From IMG/VR virus record IMGVR_UViG_3300006028_000011, positions 1 through 64,000 of that record: DNA of 64,000 bases; one strand, written 5' to 3'. The stretch's first letter is position 1, and the number at the start of each line of letters is the position of its first letter. This document shows positions 197-53,195 of this stretch, piece after piece. The position numbers were made by a program, and so were the translations under genes. The notes under the pieces are model-generated. The model made no database searches. It had not been told where the DNA came from and saw only the letters and a list, made by a program, of their open reading frames with translations. This DNA comes from a virus.

Positions 197-930
197 GATC
201 GGGCCTCCTGACGGCGGACCCAGTCGGAGGCGCGGTAGTACGCCTCGATCGACTGGCCGGCGTCGGTCCAGAAGCCGTCGATCACGTCGTGCTCGAGCAG
301 GCCTCGCTCCGCGTAGCGGTTGAGCACGTCGGTGATCTCCAGCTCGCCCCGGGCGGACGGCGCCAGCCCGGGCAGGACGCTCCAGACCGTCTCGTCGAAG
401 GCGTAGGCGCCGGTGACGACGTACGGGCTCGCCGGCACCGGAGGCTTCTCCTCGACGCGCCCGATCCTGGTCGTGGCGTCCAGCTCGGGCACCCCGGACG
501 CGCGAAGGGTCGCGATATCAGCGGTGGCCTTCAGCAGCGCGCGGGCGCCGCTCTCCTGGCGCCCGAACGCCTCCACCCATGGCCGCAGCGACCGCTCCCA
601 GACGTTGTCGGCGAGCAGGACGACGACGCGTCCGCCGGCATGGGCCTCAGCCGCCAGGAGCGCCTGGGCGATGCCGCCGGGGCGCTCCTGGCAGGCGAGC
701 TGGAGACGGCGCATGCCCAGTCCCCCGCCGTCGCCGAGCAACCTGACGAAGGCGCCGAAGTGCTGGACGCCGACGACGACGACCGCCTCCTCGATGCCGG
801 CCTCGAGGAGCGTCCTGATGGAGCGGCAGACCATCGGCTCGCGCCCCAGGGGCAGCAAGTGCTTGTTGGTGCCGACGCTCAGCGCGCCGAGGCGGGTCGC
901 CGTGCCGCCGGCGAGGATGACTCCCTTCAC
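193..930 (-). CDS. Sugar-1-phosphate nucleotidyltransferase (RmlA-like)
   Basis: This 245-residue protein starts VKGVILAGGTATRLG, the glycine-rich signature of nucleotidyltransferases, followed by NKHLLPLG with the usual Lys and by LLADN, VEEKP and FWTDAG motifs. These match glucose-1-phosphate thymidylyl/uridylyltransferases, which couple a sugar phosphate to an NTP and release pyrophosphate. The GTG start overlaps the glycosyltransferase stop (GTGA), so translation is probably coupled. With the epimerase and glycosyltransferase next to it, the likely output is an activated sugar for a virion protein or for DNA. The exact sugar cannot be read from the sequence. Confidence 0.85.
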   Translation of the reverse strand: MKGVILAGGTATRLGALSVGTNKHLLPLGREPMVCRSIRTLLEAGIEEAVVVVGVQHFGAFVRLLGDGGGLGMRRLQLACQERPGGIAQALLAAEAHAGGRVVVLLADNVWERSLRPWVEAFGRQESGARALLKATADIATLRASGVPELDATTRIGRVEEKPPVPASPYVVTGAYAFDETVWSVLPGLAPSARGELEITDVLNRYAERGLLEHDVIDGFWTDAGQSIEAYYRASDWVRRQEARS

Positions 931-2338: not shown

Positions 2339-3625
2339 CTAGAAGACCAGGCCGGCCGGGCCCTTGATGGGCATGAAGCCGTACGGCTTGGTGCAGATCT
2401 GCGCCGAGCGCTCCCGGATGTTCCGGGTGTAGGCGTCCACGTTCTGGTAGGCGCCGCCCGACGTGTTGTAGTCCCCGTAGATCGCGGGCATGACCTGGAT
2501 GGGGACGTAGGGGGCGTACACGTACGCCGCCTGCAGCTGGCTCGGGTTCCGCTTGTAGAGGAACCCGACGTCGTCCTTGATGAAGTCGGTCCCCCAGATC
2601 CTCCACCGGCCGGCGTACGTGCCGTAGTCGGTGATGCCCAGGGAGGCCATGTTCTGGTCGGTCGGCGCCTGCGACTGGGTGGCCGTGTTGAGCTTCTGCA
2701 GGAAGCCCGCCAGGCCGTAGCCGGCGATGATGCCGTCCGAGGGGTAGCGGTTCGCCTTCTGGAAGAGGACGTCCGCGTCGATGACCTGGCCGTAGACCAG
2801 CGCCTTGTAGTCGGTGACCGTGTTCGAGCCCTGGGCCGCGATGGTGGTCAGGGTGTTCGGGCCGGCCCACGGGTTGACCAGGTTGGCGCCGGTCCCGGTC
2901 CCGCTCGTCGAGTTGATGTAGATGTCCTGGATGTGGCGGCCGAACAGGTTGCGCACGAACTCCTCGGAGAACGCGCCGATGAGCTCCTGCTCGATGTCGA
3001 GGCCCAGCTGCGCCCGGGCGTCCTCCATGGCCTCGAGGCTCCAGGACATGCCCATGAGCTGCTTGACCACGGTGAGGGTCGTCCGGTTGAGGCTGATCTT
3101 CCCCTTGTTCGGGACGCCGAGCTCCGCCGTGAGGAAGTTGTTGTACTCGACGGACAGGATGTTCGTCGAGTCGTTCTCGCGGAGGAAGTCGAGCCAGAAC
3201 ACGTAGCCGGTCGGCCCCGGGAGCGGCTGCACCACCTGGAAGTCGGCCTCAATGACCAGCGCGTAGATGCGCCGGACGATCGGGAGGCTGTACTTGGTGG
3301 GCAGCGCCAGGTCCGCGTCGGCGGTGTCCTGGAGGAGGACGCGGCCGTTGGAGACGGTCGCCTCCTTCGAGTGCTGGAAGCGGAGCTGGTTCTCCAGCAC
3401 CATCGCCATCGCCTGTCGCGAACGCTCGCTGCGCAGGGGGATGGCGTTGAAGCGCTGCTCCGACTCCTGGCCGAGCCAGTCGATGTACTCGACCTTGCCG
3501 GTGCGGGTGTTGAGCGTGGGGCGATGGCTCCACTTCTTCACCAGCAGCTCCTGCTGGAGCTGCACGTTGCGCATCTGCTCCAGAGCGACCTGCGGGTCGA
3601 CGGCGTCGATGTCGATGCCGGGCAT
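2339..3625 (-). CDS. Major capsid protein (T4 gp23-like HK97 fold)
   Basis: The 428-residue product has the layout of T4-like major capsid proteins. It contains a long region with SLEAMEDARAQLGLDIEQEL (the conserved helix around the spine) and a C-terminal part with YVYAPYVPIQVMP and EICTKPYG-like sequence (RSAQICTKPYGF). It would form the icosahedral shell of the virion. Its ATG directly abuts the TAG stop of the protease/scaffold gene, with GGAGG just upstream inside that gene, so the two are translationally linked. Length and gene order (portal, head morphogenesis, protease/scaffold, capsid) fit the assignment. Confidence 0.9.
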   Translation of the reverse strand: MPGIDIDAVDPQVALEQMRNVQLQQELLVKKWSHRPTLNTRTGKVEYIDWLGQESEQRFNAIPLRSERSRQAMAMVLENQLRFQHSKEATVSNGRVLLQDTADADLALPTKYSLPIVRRIYALVIEADFQVVQPLPGPTGYVFWLDFLRENDSTNILSVEYNNFLTAELGVPNKGKISLNRTTLTVVKQLMGMSWSLEAMEDARAQLGLDIEQELIGAFSEEFVRNLFGRHIQDIYINSTSGTGTGANLVNPWAGPNTLTTIAAQGSNTVTDYKALVYGQVIDADVLFQKANRYPSDGIIAGYGLAGFLQKLNTATQSQAPTDQNMASLGITDYGTYAGRWRIWGTDFIKDDVGFLYKRNPSQLQAAYVYAPYVPIQVMPAIYGDYNTSGGAYQNVDAYTRNIRERSAQICTKPYGFMPIKGPAGLVF

Positions 3626-4081: not shown

Positions 4082-5407
4082 GAGTCGCGGTGTCCTCCTT
4101 CTCGGAGTGGGATGATTCGCTGGGGCCTTCGCGGCCTCGACACGCGCGTCCTCCTGCAGGATCTGGATGCCCCACGTCGGCTGCGCCGGCGAGTCAGGCG
4201 CGAAGTCCACGCCGTCGATCGCCAGCCGGAGCGGCGTCAGCATCGGCTGCCCGTTCACCTTCCGGTCCTCCAGCTCGAACCGGCCAAGGCCCGAGCGGAG
4301 CGAGACCGCGTTCAGGTGCTTGTTCTGTGCGAGCACCTGGATGTCACGGCCGGTGGAGGTGGGCGAGACTTCGAGGGTCGCGTAGCCAATGCGGCCCTCC
4401 TGCTCGAGGTCCACGACGGCGCCGACCGGCAGATGGTCGCCGCTGGTGGCGTGGGCGTGTCGCGCATAGACGTTGAGGGGCTGCTTGCCCTCCTCGATCT
4501 GGCGCTTGCCCTCCTGGACGATGCCCGGGAGGATCGAGCGCGGGAAGTAGATGGGCTTGGTGAATCCGGGCGCCCGGGCGATCGACTCGCCGACGTAGAA
4601 GGGCACCTTGAGGCGCATGACGCCGCCGTTGGCCTCGGCCGCCTCCTGGAGGATGACCGGCTTCGGGACCTCGCCCTCCAGCAGCAGCAACGGCCTCAGC
4701 GGGCTCGTCTCGGAGACCATCGCCCCCTTCGCCCTCGCGCGCTGGCCCTTCGCGGTGAGCTGACCGGACGGAAGCACGTAGTCGTGGTCCGAGTCGCCCT
4801 CCGGCGAGGAGTCGTCGTCGCCGTCGTGGTCGGGGTCGAACACTCGGCGACCGTCCGGCTCGATGCGGTAGTCGCCGTCGTAGCGGACGCCCGCCGCGCC
4901 CGACTGCGAGGGCGATCCGGCCTCGGCCGCCAGCGCGCCGCTCGAGGTCCACGCCCTCGGGATGGCGGACGACTTGCCCAGGGCGCGGGCGCGCTTGATG
5001 ATGTGCCGGCGGATGGCGTCGTGATCCTTCCCGCCGCGGCCGACCGCGCTGATGGCCTTGCCGAGGTCCTCCTCGTCGCCGATCGGGTAGCTGGGCTCGC
5101 CGTTGGCGTTGCGGATCGCCTGACCCTTGGCCAGCATCGAGCGCAGCTGGTCTGCGGTGTACTTGGCCATGTCGATAGGGCCTCCTGGGAGCGTGGGGAT
5201 GTCGTCCGGGCAGGGCACCGGGTCGGTCGGCTGGGTCAGCGCGGCCTTCGCCGCCAGCTGGCGGCGGCGCTCGCGCGACTCGTCGTCCTGGACCTCGTCG
5301 CCGGTCTTGGGGAGGGCCACCTTCACCAGGTGCCCACCCGACTTGGCGACCGCCGTCCCGGCGGAGATGTCGGTGCTCGTGGTGTCGAGCTGGAGCGGAT
5401 CGGTCAT
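3626..5407 (-). CDS. Prohead maturation protease fused to scaffold
   Basis: The 593-residue product has three recognisable parts. Residues ~75-150 contain a YPIGDEEDL...AIRRHIIKRA segment often found in phage capsid-related proteins. Residues ~270-420 form a prohead-protease-like domain with NVYARHAH as the probable His and LNAVSLRSG as the probable Ser region. The C-terminal ~150 residues are a charged, helical scaffold-like segment. A protease/scaffold next to the major capsid gene is standard for head assembly. An ATG at 4081 with its own ribosome binding site could give a free scaffold (separate entry). Asp/Glu-rich stretches near residue 200 are also notable. Confidence 0.8.
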   Translation of the reverse strand: MTDPLQLDTTSTDISAGTAVAKSGGHLVKVALPKTGDEVQDDESRERRRQLAAKAALTQPTDPVPCPDDIPTLPGGPIDMAKYTADQLRSMLAKGQAIRNANGEPSYPIGDEEDLGKAISAVGRGGKDHDAIRRHIIKRARALGKSSAIPRAWTSSGALAAEAGSPSQSGAAGVRYDGDYRIEPDGRRVFDPDHDGDDDSSPEGDSDHDYVLPSGQLTAKGQRARAKGAMVSETSPLRPLLLLEGEVPKPVILQEAAEANGGVMRLKVPFYVGESIARAPGFTKPIYFPRSILPGIVQEGKRQIEEGKQPLNVYARHAHATSGDHLPVGAVVDLEQEGRIGYATLEVSPTSTGRDIQVLAQNKHLNAVSLRSGLGRFELEDRKVNGQPMLTPLRLAIDGVDFAPDSPAQPTWGIQILQEDARVEAAKAPANHPTPRRRTPRLMSEDELTLDTLRAEYPEIVAEIEAPLRRENQQLTSRLNVLEQERNARLRDEKLREIAGNFPDPEKALPVLQELCSDCETDAQVAERAFPVLLEALKRAKATEEPAIERPTREVLLEMFQPGGAGKVPITQEGEGAKDHDPGEFSGVDLAEV

Positions 5408-5502
5408 CGCCGGGGCGGCTGCGGACCCTGCGGCGTGGCGCCCTGCACCGGGCCGTCCGGCGGCAGGAAGAGGTCGGCCAAGGTGGTCGTGCTGCGGGCC
5501 AT
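5404..5502 (-). CDS. Small 32-residue protein in the head operon
   Basis: MARSTTTLADLFLPPDG is preceded by AGGAGG at an 8-base spacing and its TGA overlaps the protease ATG (ATGA). No family is recognised. It fills the only space between the head-morphogenesis gene and the protease, so it is probably translated and may act as a coupling peptide. Confidence 0.55.
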   Translation of the reverse strand: MARSTTTLADLFLPPDGPVQGATPQGPQPPRR

Positions 5503-5542
5503 GCGGGCGCCTCCTGCGAGTACGACTGGATGCCGGGCCGGC

Positions 5543-6625
5543 TCAGGCAGCGATGGCGTCGCCGGAGCCGGTGTCGTAGACGGCGGCCAGGCTGCAGCGG
5601 CAGTTCCCCTTGCCGCGACACGCCTCGCCAGGCAGGGGCGCCTCCAGGGGTTCCCAGTAGATGCCGTCCTCGTCCTGGCCGCCGGCGCCCTCTTCCTGGC
5701 AGGGCAGGCACACGTCGCCGTCGTTCTGTGTCTCGTACTGGACGCCCATCCGGAACCCGGCGCCACCGGAAGCGCTCAGCGCCGAGCCCAGGTCGGCGAG
5801 ATCGGCCACCCCGATGCCGAGCGCCTCCGCGATGGCGTCGTCCAGCTCGGCCGGAGTGACGCCACCGGCAGCCGAGAGGGCCGCCGCCCCGGAGCCGGCC
5901 GCGGCGACGGCTTGGCCCGCCGCCCCAGCCAGCGCCGCCGGGGTCACACCGAGAGCGCTCGCCGCGGCCTGCGATGTCTCCGACGTCGCCGTGGCCAGGT
6001 CCGCCACCGTGGCGCCGAGGCGCTCGAGGACTCTTTCGACTCGGGAACGGCTCAGCCGCAACAGGAGGGCGAGGGCGACAAGGACGGCGAGCTCGTCGTC
6101 GCGCTGCTCTTCCTCGCCGTCATCCTCCTGACGCAGGGGCAGCCGGAACCGGGAGCGCACGGTGTCGCCGAGGTCGCGCGCGCCGGCGCGGAACCCGGCC
6201 TCCGTCACACGCCAAAGTTGCCCGCCGTACTGCTGCTCGACGCGACTCCGAAAGGCCTTGCCCAGATCGACGAGGTCGGCGCCCTGCATCCGCTGCAAGG
6301 TGGCCTTGTCCTGGATGTCGGCCTCAAGGGAGCGCTGGACGTACATGCGGTTGGACTGAAGCGCCGCCGCGACCCAGCGCCGGTCGTCGGGGCCGAGGGT
6401 GGCAGCTCCGAACGCCTGGCGCTTCCCGCGCAGGTAGGCCGGCTCGTAGTTGGCCTCGGCCGCCTGCTGGAGTCGCGCGCCGAGCGCCTGCGTGCTCATG
6501 CCGGCCACCTGGGAGCGCCGCAGCCAGTCATCGAAGATGGCGCGGAGGGCGCGGCCGTAGCCGGCCACCTGGGCGTCGTTGTCCGTGCGGTGGAGTGCGG
6601 AGCGGGCGATCCTGCGGACGGTCAC
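5543..6625 (-). CDS. Phage head morphogenesis protein (SPP1 gp7 / Mu gpF-like)
   Basis: The 360-residue product is helical and Ala-rich. It ends in the Cys cluster of the Mu gpF family (QNDGDVCLPCQEEG ... CRGKGNCRCS), a putative metal-binding C terminus. Such proteins are minor head components needed to start capsid assembly or protect DNA ends, and their genes usually sit between portal and protease, as here. The GTG start overlaps the preceding stop (GTGA). An acidic stretch near residue 170 (DDGEEEQRDDE) interrupts two helical halves. Confidence 0.85.
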   Translation of the reverse strand: MTVRRIARSALHRTDNDAQVAGYGRALRAIFDDWLRRSQVAGMSTQALGARLQQAAEANYEPAYLRGKRQAFGAATLGPDDRRWVAAALQSNRMYVQRSLEADIQDKATLQRMQGADLVDLGKAFRSRVEQQYGGQLWRVTEAGFRAGARDLGDTVRSRFRLPLRQEDDGEEEQRDDELAVLVALALLLRLSRSRVERVLERLGATVADLATATSETSQAAASALGVTPAALAGAAGQAVAAAGSGAAALSAAGGVTPAELDDAIAEALGIGVADLADLGSALSASGGAGFRMGVQYETQNDGDVCLPCQEEGAGGQDEDGIYWEPLEAPLPGEACRGKGNCRCSLAAVYDTGSGDAIAA

Positions 6626-6963
6626 AGCAGCTTCGGTGTGATCCGCCAGATCGCCTGGTCCGCATCCGGCCAGCGCTCGATGTCGCCGTTCGCGAACGTC
6701 ACCATCCACTCGGCGAAGAGGTCCTGCGCCACCGCCACATCGGCCGCGACCTGCTGGTACTGGACGCCGCCGGTGGTGTCGAGCGCCCCGCCCCCGATGG
6801 CTGTCACCGTGCCGTTGGCCACGATCGCGTTGCCGAGTCGATCCACGGCATGGAACTTCACGGTGGCGCCGGTCAGGTTCACGGCGACCCCGTTCCTGTC
6901 CAGCAGGGTGTCCGTGATCGGCGGTCCGGTGTCGCCCTGCTTGGAGTAGTAGAACGTCGCCAT
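6622..6963 (-). CDS. Virion protein with BppU-like Ig-type domain
   Basis: The 113-residue product starts MATFYYSKQGDTGPPITDTL and contains DRNGVAVNLTGATVKFHAVD, the pattern of the N-terminal beta domain of baseplate upper proteins and related phage structural proteins. It ends DGDIERWPDADQ-like, typical of small head/baseplate adaptors. Its start overlaps the preceding stop as TGATG. The exact role in the particle is not clear. Confidence 0.6.
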   Translation of the reverse strand: MATFYYSKQGDTGPPITDTLLDRNGVAVNLTGATVKFHAVDRLGNAIVANGTVTAIGGGALDTTGGVQYQQVAADVAVAQDLFAEWMVTFANGDIERWPDADQAIWRITPKLL

Positions 6964-8213
6964 CAGCGCAGGGTCACCTCGTCGCCCGCGGCCGGGGTGC
7001 GCAGCATCCGCAGCGCCGCCGGCAGCGCCTTGGCCCAGCTCGTGAAGGTCAGGCCCTTGTCGTTGACCACAGCAGTGCCGTGGTCCTTGCTCACGAACTG
7101 GTCGTAGCGGACGCCCTCCTCGCGCATCTGGTGGCGCATGGCGGCGAGCCGCCGAGAGGACTCCTCCGGGGTCTTGTCCGCCGGGTCCCAGCCGGCGCAC
7201 GAGAGGTGGATCTGGTAGCCGGCGTCCCAGACCTGCCGGAGCGCGTCCACCGCGGCGGGGGAGATGCGGCCCTCGCGCGCCGAGCTGTTCGAGTCGCTGA
7301 GGCAGCGATGGACGTCCACGTCGAGGATGCGGGTCGAGAGGCCGCGTGGCTGGTCGGGCGGCACCGCGTCAGGGTCCGGCCAGTCCTCGATCAGTTGCCC
7401 CTGGTCCGGAAGCTGGACCAGGCGGCGGATGCCAGCCTTGTCCGACTCCGTGCGCTGCTCGAGCTGGGCCTCGACCCCAGCTCGGACCGCGTCCCAGTCG
7501 CCGCGCCTGACCGGCACCATCCGGTCGTCCAGGTAGCAACGGGCCCTGACGTTGCCCGTGATGAACCCGATCGGCAGCCCGTAGGCGGTGCACCACGACT
7601 GGATGAGCACCTGGCGGGCGGCGAGGACGAGCGGGCCGTGCGAGGGGTCCAGCCCGGCGGTCGCGATGTGCAGGCACAGGCCCTGGCCCCGCCAGACGTC
7701 CAGCGCGGCCTTGACGCCATCGAAGGGGGGCGCGAGGAAGCCGGGCTGGTCGATGGCTACGAACCCCGGGCTCGGCGTCAAGGTCTCGTGGAGGTCGAAG
7801 ACGACGACCGGGGGCGCGCCGGCGTCCGTGGAGTGGTCGTGGGCCGGCGGGCGCTTCTCGTCGGTGTAGACCCGCTCCAGCACCAGGCGGCGCGTCTCGC
7901 TGTCGGCGAGGACGGCGGCCATCTGGCCGAGGCGGGACTCCAGCGCCACGGCCTCCTCGGCCCAGCGCTGGAGCTGCGCCGCCGCCTCCGCGTGCTGAGC
8001 GGTCAGCGCGGCGGCCTGCCGCTCTCTCGTCGCGAGCTCGGCGCGCAGGGTGGCCTCGACGCCCTCCCGGGCCGCCAGGCGCCGGCGCAGGACGCGCATC
8101 TCGCCGAGGAGGCGGTCCGACTCGCGCTCCACCTCGCGCAGACGAGGCCGGAAGGCGTCGGCGACCTCGGCCGAGACCCGGTCGATGAGGACGGCCGCCT
8201 CGTGGTCAGTCAT
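6963..8213 (-). CDS. Coiled-coil protein with two tandem HAD-like domains
   Basis: The 416-residue product begins with ~140 residues of charged coiled coil, then two HAD-phosphatase-like halves. The first has VVFDLHETLTPS (motif I, second Asp replaced by His) and YLDDRMVPV (motif IV). The second has RILDVDVHRCLS and VVNDKG. HAD enzymes use the first Asp as nucleophile to hydrolyse phosphate esters. The altered second Asp in both halves may change or abolish catalysis. Lying between portal and head-morphogenesis genes, it may be a virion-associated or modification enzyme. The start at 8213 overlaps the end of the small Cys-rich gene. Confidence 0.65.
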   Translation of the reverse strand: MTDHEAAVLIDRVSAEVADAFRPRLREVERESDRLLGEMRVLRRRLAAREGVEATLRAELATRERQAAALTAQHAEAAAQLQRWAEEAVALESRLGQMAAVLADSETRRLVLERVYTDEKRPPAHDHSTDAGAPPVVVFDLHETLTPSPGFVAIDQPGFLAPPFDGVKAALDVWRGQGLCLHIATAGLDPSHGPLVLAARQVLIQSWCTAYGLPIGFITGNVRARCYLDDRMVPVRRGDWDAVRAGVEAQLEQRTESDKAGIRRLVQLPDQGQLIEDWPDPDAVPPDQPRGLSTRILDVDVHRCLSDSNSSAREGRISPAAVDALRQVWDAGYQIHLSCAGWDPADKTPEESSRRLAAMRHQMREEGVRYDQFVSKDHGTAVVNDKGLTFTSWAKALPAALRMLRTPAAGDEVTLR

Positions 8214-8508: not shown

Positions 8509-10659
8509 CTACGCCACGTCCTCGTTGATCTCGCGCGCCTTCGCGAGCGCCTCCCGCTGCTCGTCCAGCACGCGGTCGACGTCGCGCTCCAGGATCGCCA
8601 GCGTGCGGCTCTTGATCGCCTCGGAGAGCATCAGCACCGACGAGCGGTCCACGGCCCCTCGGGGCTGCACGTAGTCGTCGTAGGGATCATCCTCGGCGAT
8701 CACGAGGTTGCGCCGGACATGCGTCTGTGGGTGGACGTCGCGCGGCATCCCGGCCGCCCGGGCGGACAGGTGCGTGGCGTGGCTGGCGGCGTGCGGATGC
8801 ACATGCGTGTTCCCGCCGGCGTGCGCGTGGGGGTGGGAGTGCACGAGGGTGCCGTGGGCGTGCGCGTGGGCGTGGGCGCCTGCGACCGGGCCATGGACCT
8901 TGGGCTTCGGCTTGACCGTCACCTTCGCCTTCGCGCGGGCCGCGCTCTTGGCGGCGCCCTTCCGCCGGCGGGCGGCCAGGGCGGCGGCGCGCGCCGCGGG
9001 GCCCCAACCCTGGAGGATCTCGCCCTCCGCCGTCACCTCGTGCTCCTGCTCTCGGCCCTGGTTGTCGTCCGTCTCGGGCGGGCCCTCCTCGTCGTCTTCC
9101 TCGGTTGGCTCCGCGGCCGGCGCGGACTCGTCGTCGCCCGGCTGGCCAGCGGCGGCGGCCGCCGCCTGGTTGGCCTCCTCCATCCGCTTCTGGATCTCCT
9201 CGATCTCCTCGTCGGTCATGTCGAAGCGGTGGCGCATGATCCACTCGGCGTCGATGGCGTGGAGCTCGGCGTAGAGGTTGTCGGCCTGGGCCCGGCTGAA
9301 CTCGGCGTCGGCGGCCGCCGCCTCGTCCGTCGCCGAGAGCATCGGCCAGGTGATCTCGTACTCGGCCTGCGTGGGGTCGATGCCCTGCAGGACCAGGGCG
9401 GTGTCGAAGACCTGCTCCAGGGCCTGTCCGATCTGCTGCTGGATGCGGCGCAGGAAGCGGACGTACTGGACGTCCTGCTGCGAGACGGTGGCCTTGGCGT
9501 TGACCTGCTCCTCCCACCCGAGGTGCGCCGGCGGGATGCGCAGGCAGCACAGCAACTTGCGGTGGAAGTAGGTCTTGATGTCGTCGATGTTGAAGACGGT
9601 CGACCCGGAGGGCTCCAGCAGGCTCACCGTGGACGCGTTCTCGGTGAACTTGCCCTCGGAGTCCTTCACCTTGGGGACGCCCATGTAGACGTCGCTGAGG
9701 ATCCAGTACGGCTGCTCGCGCCGGCCGTCGATGGCCTGGCGCTGGTTCATCGCCTGGTTGACCTCGCCAATCGCGACCTTTGCCTCGGCGGGGGAGAGGC
9801 CGGTGGTGTCGACCTTCACGAAGAGCTTCGGGTAGGCCCTGGTGAGGCGTGCGATGATCATCGCCTCCTCGATCGCCTTCAGCTTCTTCCAGATGATCCG
9901 CGCGACGCGCAGGTGGCTGCGCCCGTAGGGCCGGAAGCCGTCGTGGTTGTTGCGGATGTGGACGACCTGCCAGGGCCAGAACGCGGCCACCATCGCCTGC
10001 GTGTCCTCGGCGCGCTGCTCGAAGGCGCAGGTCCCGCCCGGGCTCGTGCACGCCCCGCTGTCCTGGTCGTACTCGGGCTTGCCCAGCTTCAGGTCGCCGC
10101 GGGCGTCCTGGTTGCGGAACATGGTCGACGGCGGGAGCTGGCGCAGTTCGGTGATCTGGCCCTCGGCGTTGACCACGATCTCGGCGAAGTTGTCGCCGTA
10201 CTTGATCAGGTTGCGGGCCAGGCTGTAGACGATGCGGTGGAGGCGGGCGTCGTTGACGACCTGGTCCAGCACGTCGGCGATCTTCTGGTCCTCCGAGGCG
10301 GCCTGGAACGTCATCTGCATGCCGTCCTCGGAGGTGGTCGCGTTGTCCGCGATCGTGTCGAGGGCGACGCTGATCTCCTCGGAGACCTCGTCCATCTCGT
10401 CCACGTCCTTGTAGACGGCGAGGCGGTCGCTCTGGCTCTTGAAGTACTGGTCGAAGACCGACTGCAGGGCCTGCACGGTGATGCCCGAGACCGTGCTCTG
10501 CTGCTGGGCAGGCTGGGGGCCCGTCTGCGGCTGGGCCCGGAAGATCAGGCCGGCGATGCGATCGATGAGGCGCGGGTTGCGCTTGGGGATCAGGAGCTCG
10601 GGGGAGACCTGGCCGCCCATGCCGCTGGTGTCGGGCGTCACGCCTCCGGGAATCGCCAC
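8509..10659 (-). CDS. Portal protein (T4 gp20-like) with His-rich tail
   Basis: The 716-residue product matches T4-like portal proteins. It has VDEMDEVSEEISVALDTIADNA near residue 80, the stem/crown region PPAHLGWEEQVNAKATVSQQDVQYV near residue 370 and a helical segment after it. The portal ring is the DNA entry channel and the site where terminase docks. The C-terminal ~180 residues are an add-on: an acidic patch, a Lys/Ala-rich patch and then a stretch of repeated His-Ala/His-Pro pairs around residues 590-640 that could bind metal. The GTG start immediately follows the TAG stop of the upstream gene. Confidence 0.9.
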   Translation of the reverse strand: MAIPGGVTPDTSGMGGQVSPELLIPKRNPRLIDRIAGLIFRAQPQTGPQPAQQQSTVSGITVQALQSVFDQYFKSQSDRLAVYKDVDEMDEVSEEISVALDTIADNATTSEDGMQMTFQAASEDQKIADVLDQVVNDARLHRIVYSLARNLIKYGDNFAEIVVNAEGQITELRQLPPSTMFRNQDARGDLKLGKPEYDQDSGACTSPGGTCAFEQRAEDTQAMVAAFWPWQVVHIRNNHDGFRPYGRSHLRVARIIWKKLKAIEEAMIIARLTRAYPKLFVKVDTTGLSPAEAKVAIGEVNQAMNQRQAIDGRREQPYWILSDVYMGVPKVKDSEGKFTENASTVSLLEPSGSTVFNIDDIKTYFHRKLLCCLRIPPAHLGWEEQVNAKATVSQQDVQYVRFLRRIQQQIGQALEQVFDTALVLQGIDPTQAEYEITWPMLSATDEAAAADAEFSRAQADNLYAELHAIDAEWIMRHRFDMTDEEIEEIQKRMEEANQAAAAAAGQPGDDESAPAAEPTEEDDEEGPPETDDNQGREQEHEVTAEGEILQGWGPAARAAALAARRRKGAAKSAARAKAKVTVKPKPKVHGPVAGAHAHAHAHGTLVHSHPHAHAGGNTHVHPHAASHATHLSARAAGMPRDVHPQTHVRRNLVIAEDDPYDDYVQPRGAVDRSSVLMLSEAIKSRTLAILERDVDRVLDEQREALAKAREINEDVA

Positions 10660-10887: not shown

Positions 10888-11156
10888 AGCAGGCCTTGGC
10901 GGCCGCGGGCCCGGAGCACGCCCCGGGATGGCAGGCCGGACGGCTGGTGCGCCTCGACTCGCGGCTGCTGCGTCCGGGCGGCCGGGCAACCGGGGCAGTC
11001 GCAGGGCTGCGTCGCCAGGCAGGCAGCGTAGTTGCCGGCGGCGCACGGGCCGCAGCACATCCGCGCCGATGGAGCCGCGGCCTGGCGCTCCTGGAGCACG
11101 CGCTGGCGCGCCGTGTCGCGCACCACGGCGTGGCCCAGGATGTTGCGTCCGATCAT
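10884..11156 (-). CDS. Small Cys-rich protein downstream of terminase
   Basis: The 90-residue product has an N-terminal helix (MIGRNILGHAVV) and a Cys cluster (CCGPCAAGNYAACLATQPCDCPGC) that could bind metal. The ATG overlaps the terminase stop by ATGA. Function is unknown. Confidence 0.6.
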   Translation of the reverse strand: MIGRNILGHAVVRDTARQRVLQERQAAAPSARMCCGPCAAGNYAACLATQPCDCPGCPAARTQQPRVEAHQPSGLPSRGVLRARGRQGLL

Positions 11157-12523
11157 CCGTAGCTCCTCTGGCCGGCGATCACGTTCGGGGCCTGCGGCAC
11201 CCACTCGCTCTCGCCGAGCATCAAATCGGTCAGCGCCCACACCAGCGCGTCGAGGCGGTCCGGGGAGGGGGCGTTGCTGTTCGGCTCCCAGCCGCAGAGC
11301 TGGTCCTCCAGCAACGGGAAGGCGCCGACATGGTGCACGCGGCCCTGCTCGTAGAGCGCGGCCACCGGCTCGGCCCGGGCCTGCTTGGCACGAGCAGCCC
11401 GGACGGTGCGGATCGGCGCGTTCTCGCGGACGGTGCGGATCGTGCTCGTGACCATCGCGCCGCCCTGATTGACCTCGGCCACGATCCGGTCGCCCTGGTA
11501 CTTGTCCAGCGCGTCGATGACGGCGACGCCCCAGACGTTCGGGCTGCCGCCGGCGGTGCAGTCGTCGAGGACATAGGCGTGGCGGTCGGCGCCGAGGCCG
11601 GCCACCACGATGCCCGTCTCGGCGGTGCCGCCCGACGGGTCGACCCCGACCACGATGCGGGCGAAGTCGGGGAGCTGGCTCTGGCGGACTCGGAGCGCCT
11701 CCAGCTGGCCGCGGGACCAGAGCGCGCCCTCGACATCCTCGATGATCTCGGCGTACAGCTCCTGACGACCGAGCCGGGTGCCCTCGTACCGCCGCCGCAG
11801 CTCCTCCAGCGCGGCGGGGGAGAGGTTGGCCGCGTTGTCGAACGTGCTGCCGCGGGTGACGTGGACCGAACCGTCACCGCGTCCGGCGAGCTCGCGGATC
11901 AGGGGCACCGGCTTCGGGGTGGTGGTGACGACCACGCGCGGCCGTTCGCCGACGCGGAGCGCCGGCATCAGGCCCTCGTCCCAGACCTCGCGGTATCGCC
12001 AGGCGGCCAACTCGTCGCACCAGGCGCCGGAGAGGTTCCGGCCGCGGACCCCGACGCGGGGCTCCTCGGCGCCATACAGGAACGCCTTGGCGCCGTTGGT
12101 GAGCGTGACCTCGTAGGTGTTCTTGTTGTAGCCGGCGAGGACGCCTGGGCTGAGCACGCGCAGGAGCCCGACCTTGCCCTCGACGCACACCGTGCGGGCG
12201 TCGGCCAGCTTCGGGGCGATGATGGCCCACTCGCTGTCGGGGGTCGCCTCCATCCACTCGGCCAGCCACTCGGCGCCGGTCCGCGTCTTCCCCCAGCCGC
12301 GGCCCGACAGGATCAGCCAAGCCGTCCAATCGCCGGGTGGAGGGAGTTGCTCGGGGCGGGCGTGGTCGGCACCGCAGACCGGGCAGTCGCGCTCGTGCCA
12401 GCCGTGGGCGTCGCCGAGCCTCCAGGAGCGGACCGCCGCCGCCGGCGCCAGCAGCGCCGCGGCGATCGCGAACGGGTCAGGCCGTGGAGCTGAGAACCTG
12501 GAGGTGGCGGGATGCGACGACAC
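11153..12523 (-). CDS. Terminase large subunit
   Basis: The 456-residue product carries an N-terminal ATPase with Walker A SGRGWGKT (residues ~73-80) and a Walker B-like AWCDELAAW (~167-175). The C-terminal RNase H-like nuclease has VGVDPSGG, DRIVAEVNQGG and SPDRLDALVWAL. It drives DNA into the prohead and cuts the concatemer. An extra CPVCGADH in the first 55 residues may be a zinc knuckle. The GTG start lies 47 bases inside the end of the small-terminase gene. Confidence 0.95.
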   Translation of the reverse strand: MSSHPATSRFSAPRPDPFAIAAALLAPAAAVRSWRLGDAHGWHERDCPVCGADHARPEQLPPPGDWTAWLILSGRGWGKTRTGAEWLAEWMEATPDSEWAIIAPKLADARTVCVEGKVGLLRVLSPGVLAGYNKNTYEVTLTNGAKAFLYGAEEPRVGVRGRNLSGAWCDELAAWRYREVWDEGLMPALRVGERPRVVVTTTPKPVPLIRELAGRGDGSVHVTRGSTFDNAANLSPAALEELRRRYEGTRLGRQELYAEIIEDVEGALWSRGQLEALRVRQSQLPDFARIVVGVDPSGGTAETGIVVAGLGADRHAYVLDDCTAGGSPNVWGVAVIDALDKYQGDRIVAEVNQGGAMVTSTIRTVRENAPIRTVRAARAKQARAEPVAALYEQGRVHHVGAFPLLEDQLCGWEPNSNAPSPDRLDALVWALTDLMLGESEWVPQAPNVIAGQRSYG

Positions 12524-13133
12524 GGCCGACCTCCCGCTGGCGGCGGTCGAGCCCGAGCTCTGGGTCCTCCAGCATCCGGCGGATGACGTCGGCGATCAGC
12601 ACGCCCTGCCGCTCGGCCAGGCGGACGCGGCGCTCGTCGATGTCGGCGGCGATGGCCGCCTTGCACACGTCGACCAGGTGCTTGCGCTCGTCGCGGTACA
12701 GGACGACCCACACGTTCGGCGCAGCCTTCTGGGTCGTGTCGGTGCCCGGGAACTCGGAGGCGCCCTTCTCGACCTCCTCGGAGCGGCCCCAGACCAGCTC
12801 ATCGGGCGAGAGCGCCCGGACCTGCTGCTCCAGCCAGGCCACGTGGCCGGCAGTGCGGCAGACCTCCTCGAGGAGGGCGTCACCGGGGTCGATGTCGCGG
12901 GGGAGGCCGTACGTCGCGACGGCGGCGCGCGCCGCTTGCTCGGCGACTCGGCGGTCGGCGGCGGCGCGGACCTGCGGGGCCTGGCCGCCGTGCATCCGGC
13001 ACACCTCGCCGCCCCGAACGGCCTGCATCGTGCAGGGCTTGCCGTCCCGCCGATGTGCGATGCAGCGCAGGTGCAGCTCGCCGCACTCGCCGCATGGGGT
13101 GGTCCGGGCCGGGCCGCTGGCGTGGGGTGGCAC
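12477..13133 (-). CDS. Terminase small subunit-like DNA-binding protein
   Basis: The 218-residue product has the Cys/His N-terminal module often seen in actinophage small terminases (CIAHRRDGKPC, CRMHGGQAPQV), followed by helical segments with EEVCRTAGHVAWLEQQVRAL. It would recognise phage DNA and recruit the large subunit, whose gene overlaps its 3' end. An extra CGECGEL before the first module adds another possible zinc site. Confidence 0.8.
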   Translation of the reverse strand: MPPHASGPARTTPCGECGELHLRCIAHRRDGKPCTMQAVRGGEVCRMHGGQAPQVRAAADRRVAEQAARAAVATYGLPRDIDPGDALLEEVCRTAGHVAWLEQQVRALSPDELVWGRSEEVEKGASEFPGTDTTQKAAPNVWVVLYRDERKHLVDVCKAAIAADIDERRVRLAERQGVLIADVIRRMLEDPELGLDRRQREVGRVVASRHLQVLSSTA

Positions 13134-13139
13134 AGTCGT

Positions 13140-14552
13140 TCAGCCGCCTCCCAGTCGGTTGGGGCCGCCGCCGTCCGTGCGGTTCCGGCCAAGGAGCCGG
13201 TTTGCCGCCATGCCCAGGAGTCGCGTGGGGCCCTTGACGGGGTGTCCTGGAATGCCGAAGAACCCACCCGCCAGGCGCAGTCGGGCTCTGGCCAGGTGTC
13301 GCAGCCGAACGACTAGATGCCCCTGCGCCAGGACCGTCCGGATCGGGTACGCGACGAGCCGGGCAACCGCGCGACCGACCGGGCCGCGGACCCGAGACTG
13401 CACCCGGCGGCGCTCCGGACGGACCGCTCGCTGGACAGCCGCCAGGCGCCGGCGGATCGCCGGCGCCGGCCGAAAGAACCCTGCGGCCCTGCGGATCGCA
13501 GATCGGACGCGCCGTCGCTCGGGTCGCATCGCCCGCTCGGTCGCCTGCAGGACGACGCGGAGCGGATACGGGTACGGCCGGCTGAGCGCCCGGCCGACCT
13601 GGCGCGCAAGGCGGTTGCGGACGACGCGGCGTCGCGCACCAGCTGCCCTGGCGACCGCCGCCAGCGTCCGGCGGACCGGCCGCGGGAAGATGATCGCGGC
13701 GAGGGTGCCGAACCGCCCACGGAGCCGGCTCCGCGGGTACGTGCGCTGCCGCAGCGCAGCGCGGCGGCCGGCCTGCGTCCGGTAGACGGCGAGCGGCGCC
13801 GGCGTCGGGCGGGGAAGGGCGCGGCCGACCTGGCGGCCCAGTCGGAGGCGGCGCGGACGGCGGCGCTCCGTCGCCATCCGAGCCACCGCCTGCAGGGCGC
13901 GGCGGATGGCGCGCGGGTAGATGACGACCAGCGCGGAGCCGAACGGCCGGATCCGCCGGGGATGCGCCATCCGCCGGTCTTGGCGGATCGCGCGCTTCAC
14001 GGCCAGCGCGATGCGGACGGGGTAGGCGACGAGCCGCGCTACCGCCCGGCCGATCGGGGCTTCCAGCCGGGACCGAACCCTGCGCCGCTGCGGCTGCGCT
14101 GCGCGGCGCGGCGCGGTGAGCGTGACGTGGACGAAGGCGACGAACCGAGCGATTGCCCGCCCCACCGGATGATGTAGGAACGAGGCGACCATGCGCCGAC
14201 GCTGGGCCGCTCGTCGGTTGGCCTGCTGTTGGTACGTCCTGATCGGGTAGGCGTACGTCCTGGCGACGGCCCTGCCGACCGGCTTCGCGACCCGAGAGCG
14301 GACCCGACGCCGCTGCGGCATCATGGCGCGCTCGGTCGCCTGCAGGAGGCTCAGGAGCGGGCGCGGATGAGCCCGAGCGACGGCCCTGCCGACCGGCGCC
14401 CGAAGGCGGGTGCGCGTGACGCGCTGCCGACGCTCCTGGGCCCGCTCGTCGGCGCGCAGATACACCTGGATCGGCCGGGCGTAGGTCCGCGCGATCGCCC
14501 GACCGACTGGACGCCCGAGGTGGCTGCTGGGCTGGCGCCGGCCTCCGGGCAT
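13140..14552 (-). CDS. Arg-rich protein made of ~11 imperfect 35-40-residue repeats
   Basis: The 470-residue product repeats a unit of the form RxR-x-PVGRAVAR-xxAYPIR-xxL-xxxxRA-xxxxRRR, 11 times with variation. A typical unit is about 29% Arg, and the protein has almost no acidic residues. Third codon positions are almost always G or C in this frame, and an ATG with GAGG upstream starts it, so it is a real gene and not a shadow. No known family is recognised. The charge suggests DNA condensation or membrane contact. Its place between small terminase and virion genes suggests a packaged or head-associated protein. Confidence 0.7.
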   Translation of the reverse strand: MPGGRRQPSSHLGRPVGRAIARTYARPIQVYLRADERAQERRQRVTRTRLRAPVGRAVARAHPRPLLSLLQATERAMMPQRRRVRSRVAKPVGRAVARTYAYPIRTYQQQANRRAAQRRRMVASFLHHPVGRAIARFVAFVHVTLTAPRRAAQPQRRRVRSRLEAPIGRAVARLVAYPVRIALAVKRAIRQDRRMAHPRRIRPFGSALVVIYPRAIRRALQAVARMATERRRPRRLRLGRQVGRALPRPTPAPLAVYRTQAGRRAALRQRTYPRSRLRGRFGTLAAIIFPRPVRRTLAAVARAAGARRRVVRNRLARQVGRALSRPYPYPLRVVLQATERAMRPERRRVRSAIRRAAGFFRPAPAIRRRLAAVQRAVRPERRRVQSRVRGPVGRAVARLVAYPIRTVLAQGHLVVRLRHLARARLRLAGGFFGIPGHPVKGPTRLLGMAANRLLGRNRTDGGGPNRLGGG

Positions 14553-14555
14553 GAG

Positions 14556-14810
14556 CTACCTCGGGGAGAGCTGTCGGGGATTCAGCACGCGAGCCGTGTT
14601 GGCGCGGCCTGCCCAGCCGCAGGGGCACTCAGCGCGGAGGACCAGGTGGTCGCCGGGCGGGAGGTTGCGGTCCGCCGAGATGCCCAGGGTGGTCACGGCG
14701 TTGTCCTCGGCCCAGAAGGTCTGCAGGCCGGTGCCGCAGTGCGGACACCACGCCGCTGGAGTCGCTAGAGCGGGCCGGCCGAGCAGCCACGAGAGGAGGC
14801 GACCGAGCAC
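14556..14810 (-). CDS. Small zinc-ribbon protein
   Basis: The 84-residue product has CPHCGTG near residue 22 and CPCGW near residue 62, a two-knuckle zinc ribbon, with LISADRNLPPGDH-like beta sequence between. No specific function can be assigned. It lies between a virion-type gene and the Arg-rich repeat gene. Confidence 0.6.
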   Translation of the reverse strand: MLGRLLSWLLGRPALATPAAWCPHCGTGLQTFWAEDNAVTTLGISADRNLPPGDHLVLRAECPCGWAGRANTARVLNPRQLSPR

Positions 14811-14811
14811 C

Positions 14812-15270
14812 TCACTCTTCCCATTCCATCGTGCAGGTGGCGTTGACCGCCTGGGCGGCGAGGGCGCGCACGGCCAGGATGTTGGTGTTGGACCCCGCGC
14901 CGACCTGGAATGGCTCCTCGCCGAGCGGGTACTGGATCAGGATGCCCGAGGTGGGGGGGACTCGGTGGTACTCGAGCACCGTCACCGTGCCGTTCTCGGT
15001 GGTGACCGCGGTCACCGAGGTGGCCGCCGCCGCCGGCTGATACGCCTTCATCGAGTTGACCGTGCCGGCGCCGCCGCCGGAGGACGCCGTCCCGGTGCCC
15101 TGGATCAGCTCCACGCGGACCGGCGTGTTGGAGGCCGTGACGCCGTCGAACTCGATGTTCCACTGCTTCAGGATCATGAAGCGGCTGGCGATCTGGCGGA
15201 CCTCCACCACCGAGTGGATCGCGGACGTGCTGACCGCCGAGGCGTCGATGCCGGTGCTGAACAGGGACAT
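14812..15270 (-). CDS. Probable virion structural protein
   Basis: The 152-residue product is rich in beta-forming, small residues (VRVELIQGTGTASSGGG, FQVGAGSNTNIL) and has no catalytic motif. An AAGGAGAG site precedes the ATG. Composition and position among head genes suggest a decoration or head-tail joining protein, but no family is recognised. Confidence 0.55.
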   Translation of the reverse strand: MSLFSTGIDASAVSTSAIHSVVEVRQIASRFMILKQWNIEFDGVTASNTPVRVELIQGTGTASSGGGAGTVNSMKAYQPAAAATSVTAVTTENGTVTVLEYHRVPPTSGILIQYPLGEEPFQVGAGSNTNILAVRALAAQAVNATCTMEWEE

Positions 15271-15298: not shown

Positions 15299-15574
15299 AT
15301 GCCCCTGAATCAGGGCCTGACGGAAGCGCAGGTCGCCGAACGCGTCAACCGGCTCACATGCCCGATGTGCGGGACGCCCCTGCGGGTGCTGCTGCGTCGC
15401 GAGTGGGCCACGTGCTCGTGCTGCGGCGTGGACTACGCCAAGGCGCTCAACGACCAGGGCGCGGAGTGGGTGGTCAGCCGGTACGTGCCGGACGGGCATC
15501 CGAGCTGCCCGCACTACCTGGCAGCGCGTCCGCGGCTGCGGGCGCAGTCGGCGACGCCCTACCGCGGGTTGTAG
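15299..15574 (+). CDS. Plus-strand zinc-ribbon protein inside the minus-strand virion operon
   Basis: The 91-residue frame MPLNQGLTEAQ has CPMCGTPL and CSCCGVDY knuckles plus a C-terminal HPSCPHY. Codon third positions are strongly G/C, and it overlaps no minus-strand gene except the last 16 bases of its neighbour, so it looks real. A longer version could start at 15269, where the palindrome CATG also starts the minus-strand gene. Neither start has a good ribosome binding site. Confidence 0.6.
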   Translation: MPLNQGLTEAQVAERVNRLTCPMCGTPLRVLLRREWATCSCCGVDYAKALNDQGAEWVVSRYVPDGHPSCPHYLAARPRLRAQSATPYRGL

Positions 15575-16272
15575 CTGGCACGCCGGACGGCGTTCAGCGC
15601 GAGGAGTCGCCGGCGAGGAGCAGTGGCCACGGCCGCCGCGGAGTAGACCGCGATCACGTCGCGGCTGTTTGCGCTGCCGCCCGTCCAGCCTGGGCTGAAC
15701 GTCTGGCTACCCGAACCGATGAAGTCCGCCGCCTGGCCGGCGATGTTCCCGGCGGTCCCCTGGCTGAATCTCGTGGTGAAGACGCCCGAAATGGTCTGGG
15801 TTTCCGGGGTGCCGCCGTTGTCGTTGTGCACGCCCAGGTAGAAGCTGCCCGCCCCGGCTCCGGTGCCGGCCGAGAGCGAGGCCGACGTGACGCCGCTCAC
15901 CTCTGCGCTGTTCGTGCTCTGTGGGGCGCCGCTGGCGGCGCCCAGCAACGCCGTCGCCCCCATCTCGTTGAGGGTCATGTGGGTCCAGTTGACCGTTATC
16001 GCCAGGGAGCCGGCACTTGGGAGCGAGACGTTGTCGGCCCGGTAGATCCAGACCACACCGTTGTTGAGCGCATCGGTGATCGAGACGTCCACCACCCATG
16101 TCGCCGGCGAAGTGCCGTTGTCGGTGACGCTGGAAATGGTCGGCGGGCCGCCGCCGGAGAAGAACGCCCAGATGGCCAGGACGATCTTGTCCCCGGAGGA
16201 CGGGTTGGTGCCGAACGACGTCGACGAGGCGTTGTGCGCCTGGGTTGACCGCTGGTCGACCGTGATCGACAC
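15559..16272 (-). CDS. Beta-rich putative virion/adhesin protein
   Basis: The 237-residue product is Ser/Thr/Gly-rich with alternating hydrophobic residues (WVVDVSITDALNNGVVW, FYLGVHNDNGGTPET), like the jelly-roll or lectin-like domains of phage surface proteins. No signal peptide or catalytic motif is visible. A role in host attachment is only a guess. Confidence 0.5.
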   Translation of the reverse strand: MSITVDQRSTQAHNASSTSFGTNPSSGDKIVLAIWAFFSGGGPPTISSVTDNGTSPATWVVDVSITDALNNGVVWIYRADNVSLPSAGSLAITVNWTHMTLNEMGATALLGAASGAPQSTNSAEVSGVTSASLSAGTGAGAGSFYLGVHNDNGGTPETQTISGVFTTRFSQGTAGNIAGQAADFIGSGSQTFSPGWTGGSANSRDVIAVYSAAAVATAPRRRLLALNAVRRASYNPR

Positions 16273-17032: not shown

Positions 17033-17365
17033 ATGCCGCAGTACATCCTGAAGGCGGATCGGGACCGGGACCTGTACGTGGTTTGGTCCACCGTCGTCGA
17101 CAACGCCGTCTGGGCAGGGACTCGCGCGGAGCTGGAGGCCGAGCCGGACTACGACACCAGCGCCGACCGCATGGCGCGCGTCGAGGTGACCGGCACGTCA
17201 GCCCGCGACGGGACTGGCTCGTGGAGCGAGCCGACTCTCTGGGTCTGCAACCTGCCGGAACCCCTCTTGGAGCCGCGCCTCCTGCCGCGGGCGAGCCTCG
17301 CCGCCTTCGTCGCGGCCCAGGAGGACGAGCCCACCATCGCGGCATTGACGGTTCCGGCTCGGTGA
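17033..17365 (+). CDS. Hypothetical protein co-transcribed with integrase
   Basis: This 110-residue protein starts MPQYILKADRDRDLYVVWSTVVD and has no recognised family. Its TGA overlaps the integrase GTG. In other phages small genes in this place control integration, but nothing in the sequence proves that here. Confidence 0.65.
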   Translation: MPQYILKADRDRDLYVVWSTVVDNAVWAGTRAELEAEPDYDTSADRMARVEVTGTSARDGTGSWSEPTLWVCNLPEPLLEPRLLPRASLAAFVAAQEDEPTIAALTVPAR

Positions 17366-18327
17366 CCGACCTCGCCTCCCTCCCTCCCGTCCAGCCGGCC
17401 GACGCCCTGGCGCGCTACGCCAGGGCGTCGCGCGCCGACAGCACCTGGGAGAAGTACGGGCGGGACTGGCGCGCCTTCGAGTCGTGGTGTGCCCGCGAGG
17501 GCCGGGTGGCGCTGCCCGCCAGTCCGGAGACGATCGCCGAGTACGTGGTCGACCTGGTCACGAGCAGGACGCCACCGCGCTCCATCCGGTACGTCCGGCG
17601 GCACGTCGCGGCGATCGGCCTGGCCCACGCGACGGCGGGCTTCGATCCGCCTCCGACTCGCCACCAGATGCTTCGGGAAGTCCTCAAGGGGCTGGCCCGG
17701 ACCCACGGCCGGCCGGCAGCCAAGCGCAAGGCGCTCAGCGGCGAGGATCTCGCGCGGCTGATCGAGCGCACGTCGGGCGGGACGCTGGCCGGGAAGCGCG
17801 ACCGGGCGTTGCTGGCGATTGGCTACTTCGCGGCCCGGCGGCGGTCGGAGATCGTGGGCCTTGACCGCGAGCACATCGAGGAGGTCGCCGAGGGCCTGAA
17901 CATCCTGATCGTCCGGTCCAAGACGGACCCGGAGGGCGAGGGCATGGTGGTCGGCGTGAAGCGGCGCCGTGGCATCACCGACCCGGTGTCGCTGTACCGG
18001 AGCTGGCTCGCGGCGTCAGGGATCACGGAGGGCCCGCTCTTCCGGCCGATCGACCGTCACGGGAACATGGCCGGCACGCGCCTCACCGACCATGCGGTGG
18101 CGCTCATCGTGAAGCGGGCCTGCGAGCGGGCCGGGATCGACCCCGCGGTGTTCAGCGGGCACAGCCTGCGCCGCGGGTTCGCTACGTCGGCGGCGCGAGG
18201 CGGCGCGGACGGGTTGCTGATCCGGAAGCAGACCCGACACAAGTCCGACGCCATGGTGGCCGAGTACGTCGAGGAGGGTCAGCGCTTCGGGCGCCACGCC
18301 CAGGACTTCATCGACACCGGCGACTGA
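17362..18327 (+). CDS. Tyrosine integrase 1
   Basis: The 321-residue product has a SAM-like N-terminal core-binding domain (SRADSTWEKYGRDWRAFESWC). The catalytic domain carries ARRRSEIVGL (Arg I), a Lys in a beta hairpin, HSLRRGFA (His-x-x-Arg), RHKSDAM and the nucleophile in EYVEEGQRF. It would recombine attP with attB. There is no arm-binding domain, so it resembles shorter XerC-like recombinases. The GTG start overlaps the upstream stop. Confidence 0.9.
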   Translation: MTDLASLPPVQPADALARYARASRADSTWEKYGRDWRAFESWCAREGRVALPASPETIAEYVVDLVTSRTPPRSIRYVRRHVAAIGLAHATAGFDPPPTRHQMLREVLKGLARTHGRPAAKRKALSGEDLARLIERTSGGTLAGKRDRALLAIGYFAARRRSEIVGLDREHIEEVAEGLNILIVRSKTDPEGEGMVVGVKRRRGITDPVSLYRSWLAASGITEGPLFRPIDRHGNMAGTRLTDHAVALIVKRACERAGIDPAVFSGHSLRRGFATSAARGGADGLLIRKQTRHKSDAMVAEYVEEGQRFGRHAQDFIDTGD

Positions 18328-24553: not shown

Positions 24554-24846
24554 GGCGTGCGCTCCCGGCACGGCGAGCTGACACCCATTCCCGACACCCC
24601 AGCGCTGGCGGTGGCGGTCAGGAGGTGGCGGTCGCTGGCGGCATCCCCATATTCACCTGGCGGCAGCCGGCGGGGTCTGTCGCCCCGTGGCGGGAAGATA
24701 GACGGATGATGTACATCCATCCCCCGTCCCGCGACCGGCTGGCCGGGGAGCTCCGCGCCCTGGTCGCTGGAACTCAGGAGCCAGGTCTCGGAGGCTGAGA
24801 CCAGCGCCTCCTCGACCGCGATGACACCCATTTCTGACACCCTCAC
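24550..24846 (-). CDS. Hypothetical protein between integrase 2 and Mom-like gene
   Basis: This 98-residue frame starts at GTG overlapping the integrase stop (GTGA) and ends in TGA overlapping the Mom-like ATG (ATGA), the usual junctions in this genome. Its composition is not very protein-like, so confidence is moderate. Both ends carry a direct repeat built from GGGTGTC units (24578-24600 and 24822-24842), so the segment may also work as an integrase-binding or attachment region. A 30-codon plus-strand frame at 24706 lies inside it. Confidence 0.45.
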   Translation of the reverse strand: MRVSEMGVIAVEEALVSASETWLLSSSDQGAELPGQPVAGRGMDVHHPSIFPPRGDRPRRLPPGEYGDAASDRHLLTATASAGVSGMGVSSPCRERTP

Positions 24847-26054
24847 CCTGCCGACTCCTCGCCGCGCCCAGTGGCCGCCTCGTCCTCGCCCCACGCCGCG
24901 TCCAGCACGGCCAGCTGCTCGCGCAGGCCGTCGTCCTCGAGGTGGCCGTAGAGGTCGGCGGTGATCTGGATGCCGGAGTGCGCGAGCACCTCGGAGACGG
25001 TCTTGAGAGGGATCTTGAGGGCCAGCATCACGGAGGCCGCGCTATGGCGCAGGTCGTGGAACCGCCGCTCCCCCAGGCCGGCCCGCTTCAGCAGCCGCTG
25101 GAAGTGCGCCGTCACGTACTGGCCGTGGAGCGGGAGGCCGTTCGGACGGGTGAACACCAACTCGATCGGCCTCCCGTCGCTCTCCATGACGCTCCAGCTC
25201 GGCCCGGCCGCCTCTCGTTCTGCCTGCTGGCGTGCGAGGTGCTCGCGCAGGGCGGCGGCCACGGGCGCCGGCAGGGGCAGCGATCGCGGCGCCTTCTTGG
25301 AGCGCGACCGGCGCACCGAGCGCAACTGCCAGGACGTGTCGATGCGGACCAGCTTCATCGGCCAGCGGATGCGGGTGAAGTCCTCCGCGATGTCCTGGCG
25401 CCGGAGGCCGAGCAGCGAGGACTTGCGCTGCCCGAGCACGGCCGCGGTCAGGTAGAGCGCGTACAGGCGGTCCCCGCGGATGCCGGCCAGGAACGCGCGG
25501 GCCTCGGCCAGGGTCAGGATGTTCTCCGGCGCCGCCTCCGCCGCAGGCATCTCGATGAGCTCGCTTGAGGCTGGGTTGCGGTGGATCAGGCCCAGCCGGT
25601 TGGCGCGGCCGAGCGCCGAGCTGAGCGCGATCCAGATCGACCGCACCATGTTCACGCTGAACGAGCGCTGCATGGCGTCGAGGAAGCGCTGGATCTCCAG
25701 CGGGTCGAGCTGCGACAGGCGGCGGCGGCCGAGCACCGGCTTGATGTGGAGCCGGACCAGGCTCTCGTAACGCTGGTACGTGAGCGGCTCGCGGCTCGCC
25801 TTGACCGTCTCCAGCCATTGGTCGAGCCACTCGTCGAGCGTGCGCGGCGCCGCCACGCCGGACGCGGTCAGGCGACCCTGCTCCTTCTGGCGCTGGAGCC
25901 GGCGCAGCACCTTGGCGGCCCCGGCCTCCGTGTCCGCGTACTCGTACTTCCGCTGCCGCTTCCCGAGCGGGTCGCGGCCCAGGTCGATGCGGACCTGGAA
26001 GCGCCCGTCGCTCCGCCGGGTGATGGAGCCCTCGCCGCGCGCCCGCCGCCTCAC
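24843..26054 (-). CDS. Tyrosine integrase 2
   Basis: The 403-residue product has an arm-binding-type N terminus (GEGSITRRSDGRFQVRID), a SAM-like core-binding domain (RTLDEWLDQWLETVKASR) and a catalytic domain with LGQRKSSLLGL (Arg I), HDLRHSAASVM and LAHSGIQITADLYGHL (His and Tyr nucleophile). This is the actinophage-type integrase layout. The GTG overlaps the excisionase stop, so the two are expressed together. It is a second integrase besides the one at 17.4 kb. Confidence 0.92.
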   Translation of the reverse strand: MRRRARGEGSITRRSDGRFQVRIDLGRDPLGKRQRKYEYADTEAGAAKVLRRLQRQKEQGRLTASGVAAPRTLDEWLDQWLETVKASREPLTYQRYESLVRLHIKPVLGRRRLSQLDPLEIQRFLDAMQRSFSVNMVRSIWIALSSALGRANRLGLIHRNPASSELIEMPAAEAAPENILTLAEARAFLAGIRGDRLYALYLTAAVLGQRKSSLLGLRRQDIAEDFTRIRWPMKLVRIDTSWQLRSVRRSRSKKAPRSLPLPAPVAAALREHLARQQAEREAAGPSWSVMESDGRPIELVFTRPNGLPLHGQYVTAHFQRLLKRAGLGERRFHDLRHSAASVMLALKIPLKTVSEVLAHSGIQITADLYGHLEDDGLREQLAVLDAAWGEDEAATGRGEESAG

Positions 26055-52090: not shown

Positions 52091-52106
52091 CCGCCGACGG
52101 GGCCGG

Positions 52107-53102: not shown

Positions 53103-53195
53103 TCTCACTCTCCCGACAGCAAATCTGGGCGACCCACGTGGCCGCGACGACTCAGTTCAGCTCGCTACGTCGGACGAGGTCCCGACGCAGGTCTC

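Follow-up and report, generated by a model that had tools for sequence, protein, structure and literature searches.

An arginine-rich protein of eleven tandem repeats, with a possible role in coating or condensing phage DNA, encoded beside the terminase genes of a phage with T4-type head proteins

The present study describes a phage gene lying directly upstream of the terminase genes whose predicted product is built of 11 tandem arginine-rich units. The best explanation of our data, which we hold tentatively and at somewhat less than even confidence, is that the product is a real, lineage-specific accessory polycation which binds polyanions and could coat or condense the phage DNA during packaging or in the head.

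Results

The DNA analysed, called the window here, is a stretch of 64 kb out of a virus record of 82.2 kb; the GC content of the window is about 73%. The gene occupies positions 13140–14552 and codes for 470 amino acids, with an ATG at 14552 and a TGA ending at 13140. These coordinates agree with the preliminary description, which had omitted the strand; it is minus. The protein has a mass of 53.4 kDa, a pI of 12 and a net charge of +109. It contains 117 arginines (25%), 3 lysines, 2% serine and no cysteine. The earlier remark that acidic residues are almost absent is in keeping with a total of 11 Asp and Glu in 470 residues and with 0–3 in each unit. Arginine makes up 9.7% of the phage proteome as against 25% of this protein, so its arginine level does not follow from base composition alone. 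The preference for arginine over lysine, on the other hand, is expected from base composition, since the R:K ratio of the whole proteome is 4.8.

The 11 units cover residues 15–428 (13269–14510, minus strand), from unit 1 at 14510–14397 to unit 11 at 13382–13269. Units 1 to 6 span residues 15–52, 53–90, 91–128, 129–165, 166–202 and 203–240, and units 7 to 11 span residues 241–279, 280–317, 318–355, 356–390 and 391–428. They are followed by a C-terminal tail without repeats (residues 429–470; 13140–13268, minus strand), which is rich in Gly, Asn and Pro and has a net charge of +5. The units are 35–39 residues long and have the consensus PVGRAxARxxPxPxRxxLxAxxRAxxxxRRxVRSRLxx, in which Gly3 and Ala20 (numbered on the reference unit) are invariant in all 11. 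The repetition described earlier was borne out, independently of any profile, by self-similarity at an offset of 38, which reached 0.34, whereas the best value among 200 shuffles, with all offsets scanned, was −0.12. A profile of the unit found 11 domains in the protein, each with an i-Evalue of at most 1.2e-7; it should be noted here that the profile was derived from those same 11 units. The units are indeed arginine-rich, but the earlier figure of close to 30% per unit was slightly high, as the range is 21–31% with 26% across the repeat body.

High-GC DNA contains many arginine-rich shadow frames that are not genes, and for this reason coding was tested specifically. The GC content by codon position is gene-like (.80/.62/.86), and the synonymous-codon score is positive in this frame alone among the six, though weakly so (0.03 per codon versus 0.16–0.20 for the small terminase, large terminase and portal genes). 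A survey of 2.29 Mb of viral loci for strongly positive frames of at least 300 amino acids with at least 18% arginine gave 72 other long arginine-rich open frames, and the order GC3>GC1>GC2 with GC3 above 0.8 was absent from all 72. The 11 units were also treated as paralogues, and mismatches in their nucleotide alignment were counted by codon position. The observed/expected ratios at positions 1, 2 and 3 were.72,.61 and.91 (permutation p=1.5e-4), and position 3 reached the conservation of position 2 in 0 of 2000 bootstraps. The unit boundaries were drawn from the protein, which biases the register but not the contrast between codon positions. Nearly all gaps between units are multiples of a codon, and where Gly, Ala or Arg is conserved the units spell it with different synonymous codons. 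The pN/pS among units of equal length, 0.91 in the gene frame and the lowest of the six frames, was not informative. A GAGG lies upstream of the start codon. Codon-position GC, the divergence of the units and the survey of 72 shadows all disfavour a shadow-frame reading. We therefore regard the open reading frame as very probably a real, translated gene, in agreement with the earlier view of it as a true coding frame, which gene-like GC, a positive codon score, third-position divergence and frame-keeping gaps now uphold. The analysis also offers a way of telling a true arginine-rich gene apart from shadow frames, of which genomes of 73% GC are full.

All neighbours of the gene are likewise on the minus strand, in the order fibre-like gene, 152-aa gene, 84-aa ORF, repeat gene, small terminase (TerS), large terminase (TerL), portal and capsid. 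The fibre-like gene (15559–16272) corresponds to part of a 652-aa protein of L096, the nearest relative, discussed below. The 152-aa gene (14812–15270) belongs to the same operon as the repeat gene and showed no relatives in phages or IMG/VR. The 84-aa ORF directly upstream (14556–14810), also of this operon, has zinc-ribbon-like cysteines (CPHC...CPC) and no Pfam match. On the other side lie the putative TerS (12477–13133; phrog_3678, and phrog_10899 TerS at 1e-4), TerL (11153–12523), a T4-like portal of the Gp20 type (Portal_T4; 8509–10659; PF07230, 2e-36) and a Gp23-type major capsid protein (2339–3625; PF07068, 2e-20), which substantiates the earlier placement of the gene in a packaging and head region. 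The 84-aa ORF ends 3 nt before the repeat gene and TerS starts 6 nt after its stop codon; the gene is apparently translated from the terminase operon. After the capsid gene (2–2276, minus strand) there are genes for a sugar-nucleotide transferase and a glycosyltransferase, which suggests modification of capsid or cell-surface glycans.

Elsewhere in the window, at 51210–56201 on the minus strand, the phage carries a CRISPR system with Cas4 (PF01930), Cas2 (TIGR01573) and Cas1 (PF01867, 3e-65), together with a 560-aa TnpB/Cas12-like protein (guided_TnpB, 3e-50; V_cas_c2c8, 9e-20, below the cut-off). Between these genes, at 53227–54384, lies an array with about 16 copies of a 37-nt repeat (GTGGCATCCACGCTCGCGCTCCGTCGGCCGCTGCAAC). 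A complete adaptation module beside a TnpB-like effector on a phage is worth a separate study. The same phage record has two recombinases of the phage_integrase family, at 17362–18327 (plus strand) and 24843–26054 (minus strand).

The nearest relative found is L096, whose portal and capsid proteins are 65% and 70% identical to those of the window; its fibre-like protein is 56% identical over 227 aa and its TerS about 40% over 171 aa. In L096 the fibre-like, TerS, TerL, portal and capsid genes stand in the same order and the repeat gene is absent between them. The repeat-unit profile gave zero matches in the whole record of L096 or in 12 other records. Absence from L096 argues for an accessory insertion and not a core packaging gene, and on this comparison we take the repeat gene to be accessory and specific to its lineage, in a phage whose Gp20/Gp23 head proteins are of the T4 type. 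In L096 itself (4739–7005) the large terminase gene is apparently split by an intein, with a C-terminal ...HEFYANGYLAHNC motif ahead of the TerL continuation.

Searches for homologues of the repeat protein were made at several levels. Neither tblastn against 50,697 phage records nor scans of IMG/VR with the whole protein and with three-unit windows revealed a homologue. A degenerate DNA pattern for PVGRAVAR, run on IMG/VR and checked with the HMM, yielded only single-motif chance matches among the matches listed. A tandem GRAxA pattern with a spacing of 114 nt, also followed by an HMM check, found no homologue in the viral genomes of IMG/VR and none among the matches listed for 84,980 bacterial and archaeal genomes. 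When 14 viral records and about 400 genomes from the phylum of an actinobacterial MAG were searched with the HMM, one chance-level match of 22 residues came up, and a protein search of 299 genomes from the class of that MAG gave no homologue. The best Pfam match was DUF5789 at E=0.25, below the cut-off; PHROGs returned 0 families at E≤1, and NCBIfam and PDB gave no match. Low-complexity filtering in BLAST may mask weak relatives. At present sensitivity the protein thus appears to be an orphan, with a single copy on one contig. The preliminary description had called for a sequence search and knew of no described family with this repeat; that statement has held through Pfam, PHROGs, NCBIfam, PDB, the phage records, IMG/VR and the sampled bacterial genomes.

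Structure prediction, also proposed earlier, gave helices of low confidence. AlphaFold2 without relatives modelled the protein as helices with a pLDDT of 48, and a construct of two units, with the rest of the units supplied as the alignment, gave a helical model with a pLDDT of 59. In view of these low values we claim no more than that a unit probably consists of short helices interrupted by Pro and Gly. Helical moments of 0.6–0.76 mark some stretches of the units as amphipathic. These high-moment stretches have a negative mean hydrophobicity, the protein as a whole is strongly hydrophilic, and no transmembrane-like stretch was found in it (maximum 18-mer 0.36).

Discussion

Our data could be explained by a protein made as a string of 11 short, arginine-coated units, probably helical, with Pro and Gly as hinges and a charge of about +8 to +11 per unit. 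Such a protein would bind polyanions without sequence specificity, and from composition this much is likely. Its main target would be the phage's own DNA, the most probable choice for a gene that adjoins the terminase among T4-like head genes; we nevertheless regard both DNA as target and presence in the head as conjectured. On the model of the T4 internal proteins or ascovirus P64, it would coat or condense the DNA while this is packaged or once it is in the head; condensation in the head is plausible. Of the three functions named in the preliminary description, the predicted binding of DNA or another polyanion gains from composition, position and low hydrophobicity, while membrane permeabilisation is less favoured.

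Several observations count against condensation. The large aliphatic and alanine content is unlike that of protamines, and L096, the closest relative, lacks the gene and still packages its DNA. The gp21-type cleavage motif is [LI]xE, and no such T4-type site was found anywhere in the 470 residues; together with the weak codon adaptation this is a further point against our best explanation. With a single known copy, function is not traceable by conservation.

Among the alternatives, the one that survives best is that the protein binds RNA as a regulator of the arginine-rich-motif kind or, on the virion surface, grips anionic polymers in the cell wall of a Gram-positive host, such as teichoic acid. 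The composition argument serves it as well as it serves DNA, the RRRVRSR stretches resemble arginine-rich motifs, and the gene is on the side of the fibre-like genes (15559–16272); but fibre, adhesin and RNA-binding domains were looked for in the protein and none was found, and eleven similar units exceed what a regulator would be expected to need. We judge it unlikely, if worth keeping in mind. A membrane-active or antibacterial protein, acting through cationic amphipathic helices as a lysis helper or an ejected permeabiliser, is distinctly improbable, since the stretches whose high moments would recommend it have negative mean hydrophobicity, nothing transmembrane-like is present, and the gene adjoins the terminase and not lysis genes. 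The location of the gene immediately ahead of TerS and TerL, with its 6-nt spacing, would suit a basic assembly or packaging cofactor, scaffold-like or terminase-associated, whose work is done in the prohead or motor and which does not stay to condense DNA; however, L096 lacks the gene although its portal, capsid and terminase genes come in the same order, and we give this possibility little credence. Finally, it is very improbable that the frame is nonfunctional, whether as a gene in decay or as an arginine-rich open reading of repetitive GC-rich DNA: shadow frames are common here (72 per 2.29 Mb), the codon score is weakly positive and no homologue confirms conservation, but the units diverge at third positions, their gaps preserve the frame, none of the 72 shadows has gene-like GC, and the spacing is of the operon type.

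The proposed polycation can be compared with several known systems. TPR, PPR, HEAT and PUF proteins are helical repeat solenoids with repeats of 34–40 aa. The repeat protein shares this repeat length and the predicted helices, but has no Pfam match, no convincing hydrophobic core and a pLDDT below 60. The T4 internal proteins are basic, are present at about 300 copies each per head and bind DNA at low salt; they are poorly conserved and vary between relatives, and IPI, IPII and IPIII, of 8–20 kDa, have an N-terminal capsid-targeting sequence that is cleaved by gp21 (PMC9026906). Like the present protein they are basic and accessory and belong to phages with heads of the Gp20/Gp23 type; such head genes are found in our phage. 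Unlike these small proteins, which are not described as repetitive in PMC9026906, the repeat protein is 53 kDa, repetitive and devoid of [LI]xE, and no PHROG or Pfam match links it to their sequence family.

Ascovirus P64, with a pI of about 12, condenses the viral DNA and has arginine-rich tandem repeats, 14 copies of a short Ser/Arg motif, as well as vs2C-ad cysteine motifs at its N-terminus, and baculovirus P6.9 is a protamine-like, arginine-rich neutraliser of DNA (PMC6163548). The likeness to P64 lies in a large viral cationic protein with the same pI and many tandem arginine-rich repeats, whereas the present units are of 38 aa, composed of Ala, Val, Arg and Pro, in a protein of phage origin with little Ser and no Cys; the SPSQRRSTS(V/K)(A/S)RR repeats and vs2C-ad motifs of P64 are absent from it. 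P6.9 is very small, Arg/Ser-rich and regulated by phosphorylation, in contrast to a long, periodic protein rich in Ala, Val and Leu. By analogy the repeat protein may work like the T4 internal proteins or P64, with membership in neither shown. The bolder proposal, that it is a phage nucleoprotein organising DNA like a giant protamine and founding a new family of viral DNA-condensing repeat proteins among viruses of bacteria, seems to us rather doubtful. The DNA of tailed phages is usually described as naked and neutralised by small cations. If the repeat protein enters the head, it would be a protein-based alternative to these cations, comparable to the protamines of eukaryotic viruses.
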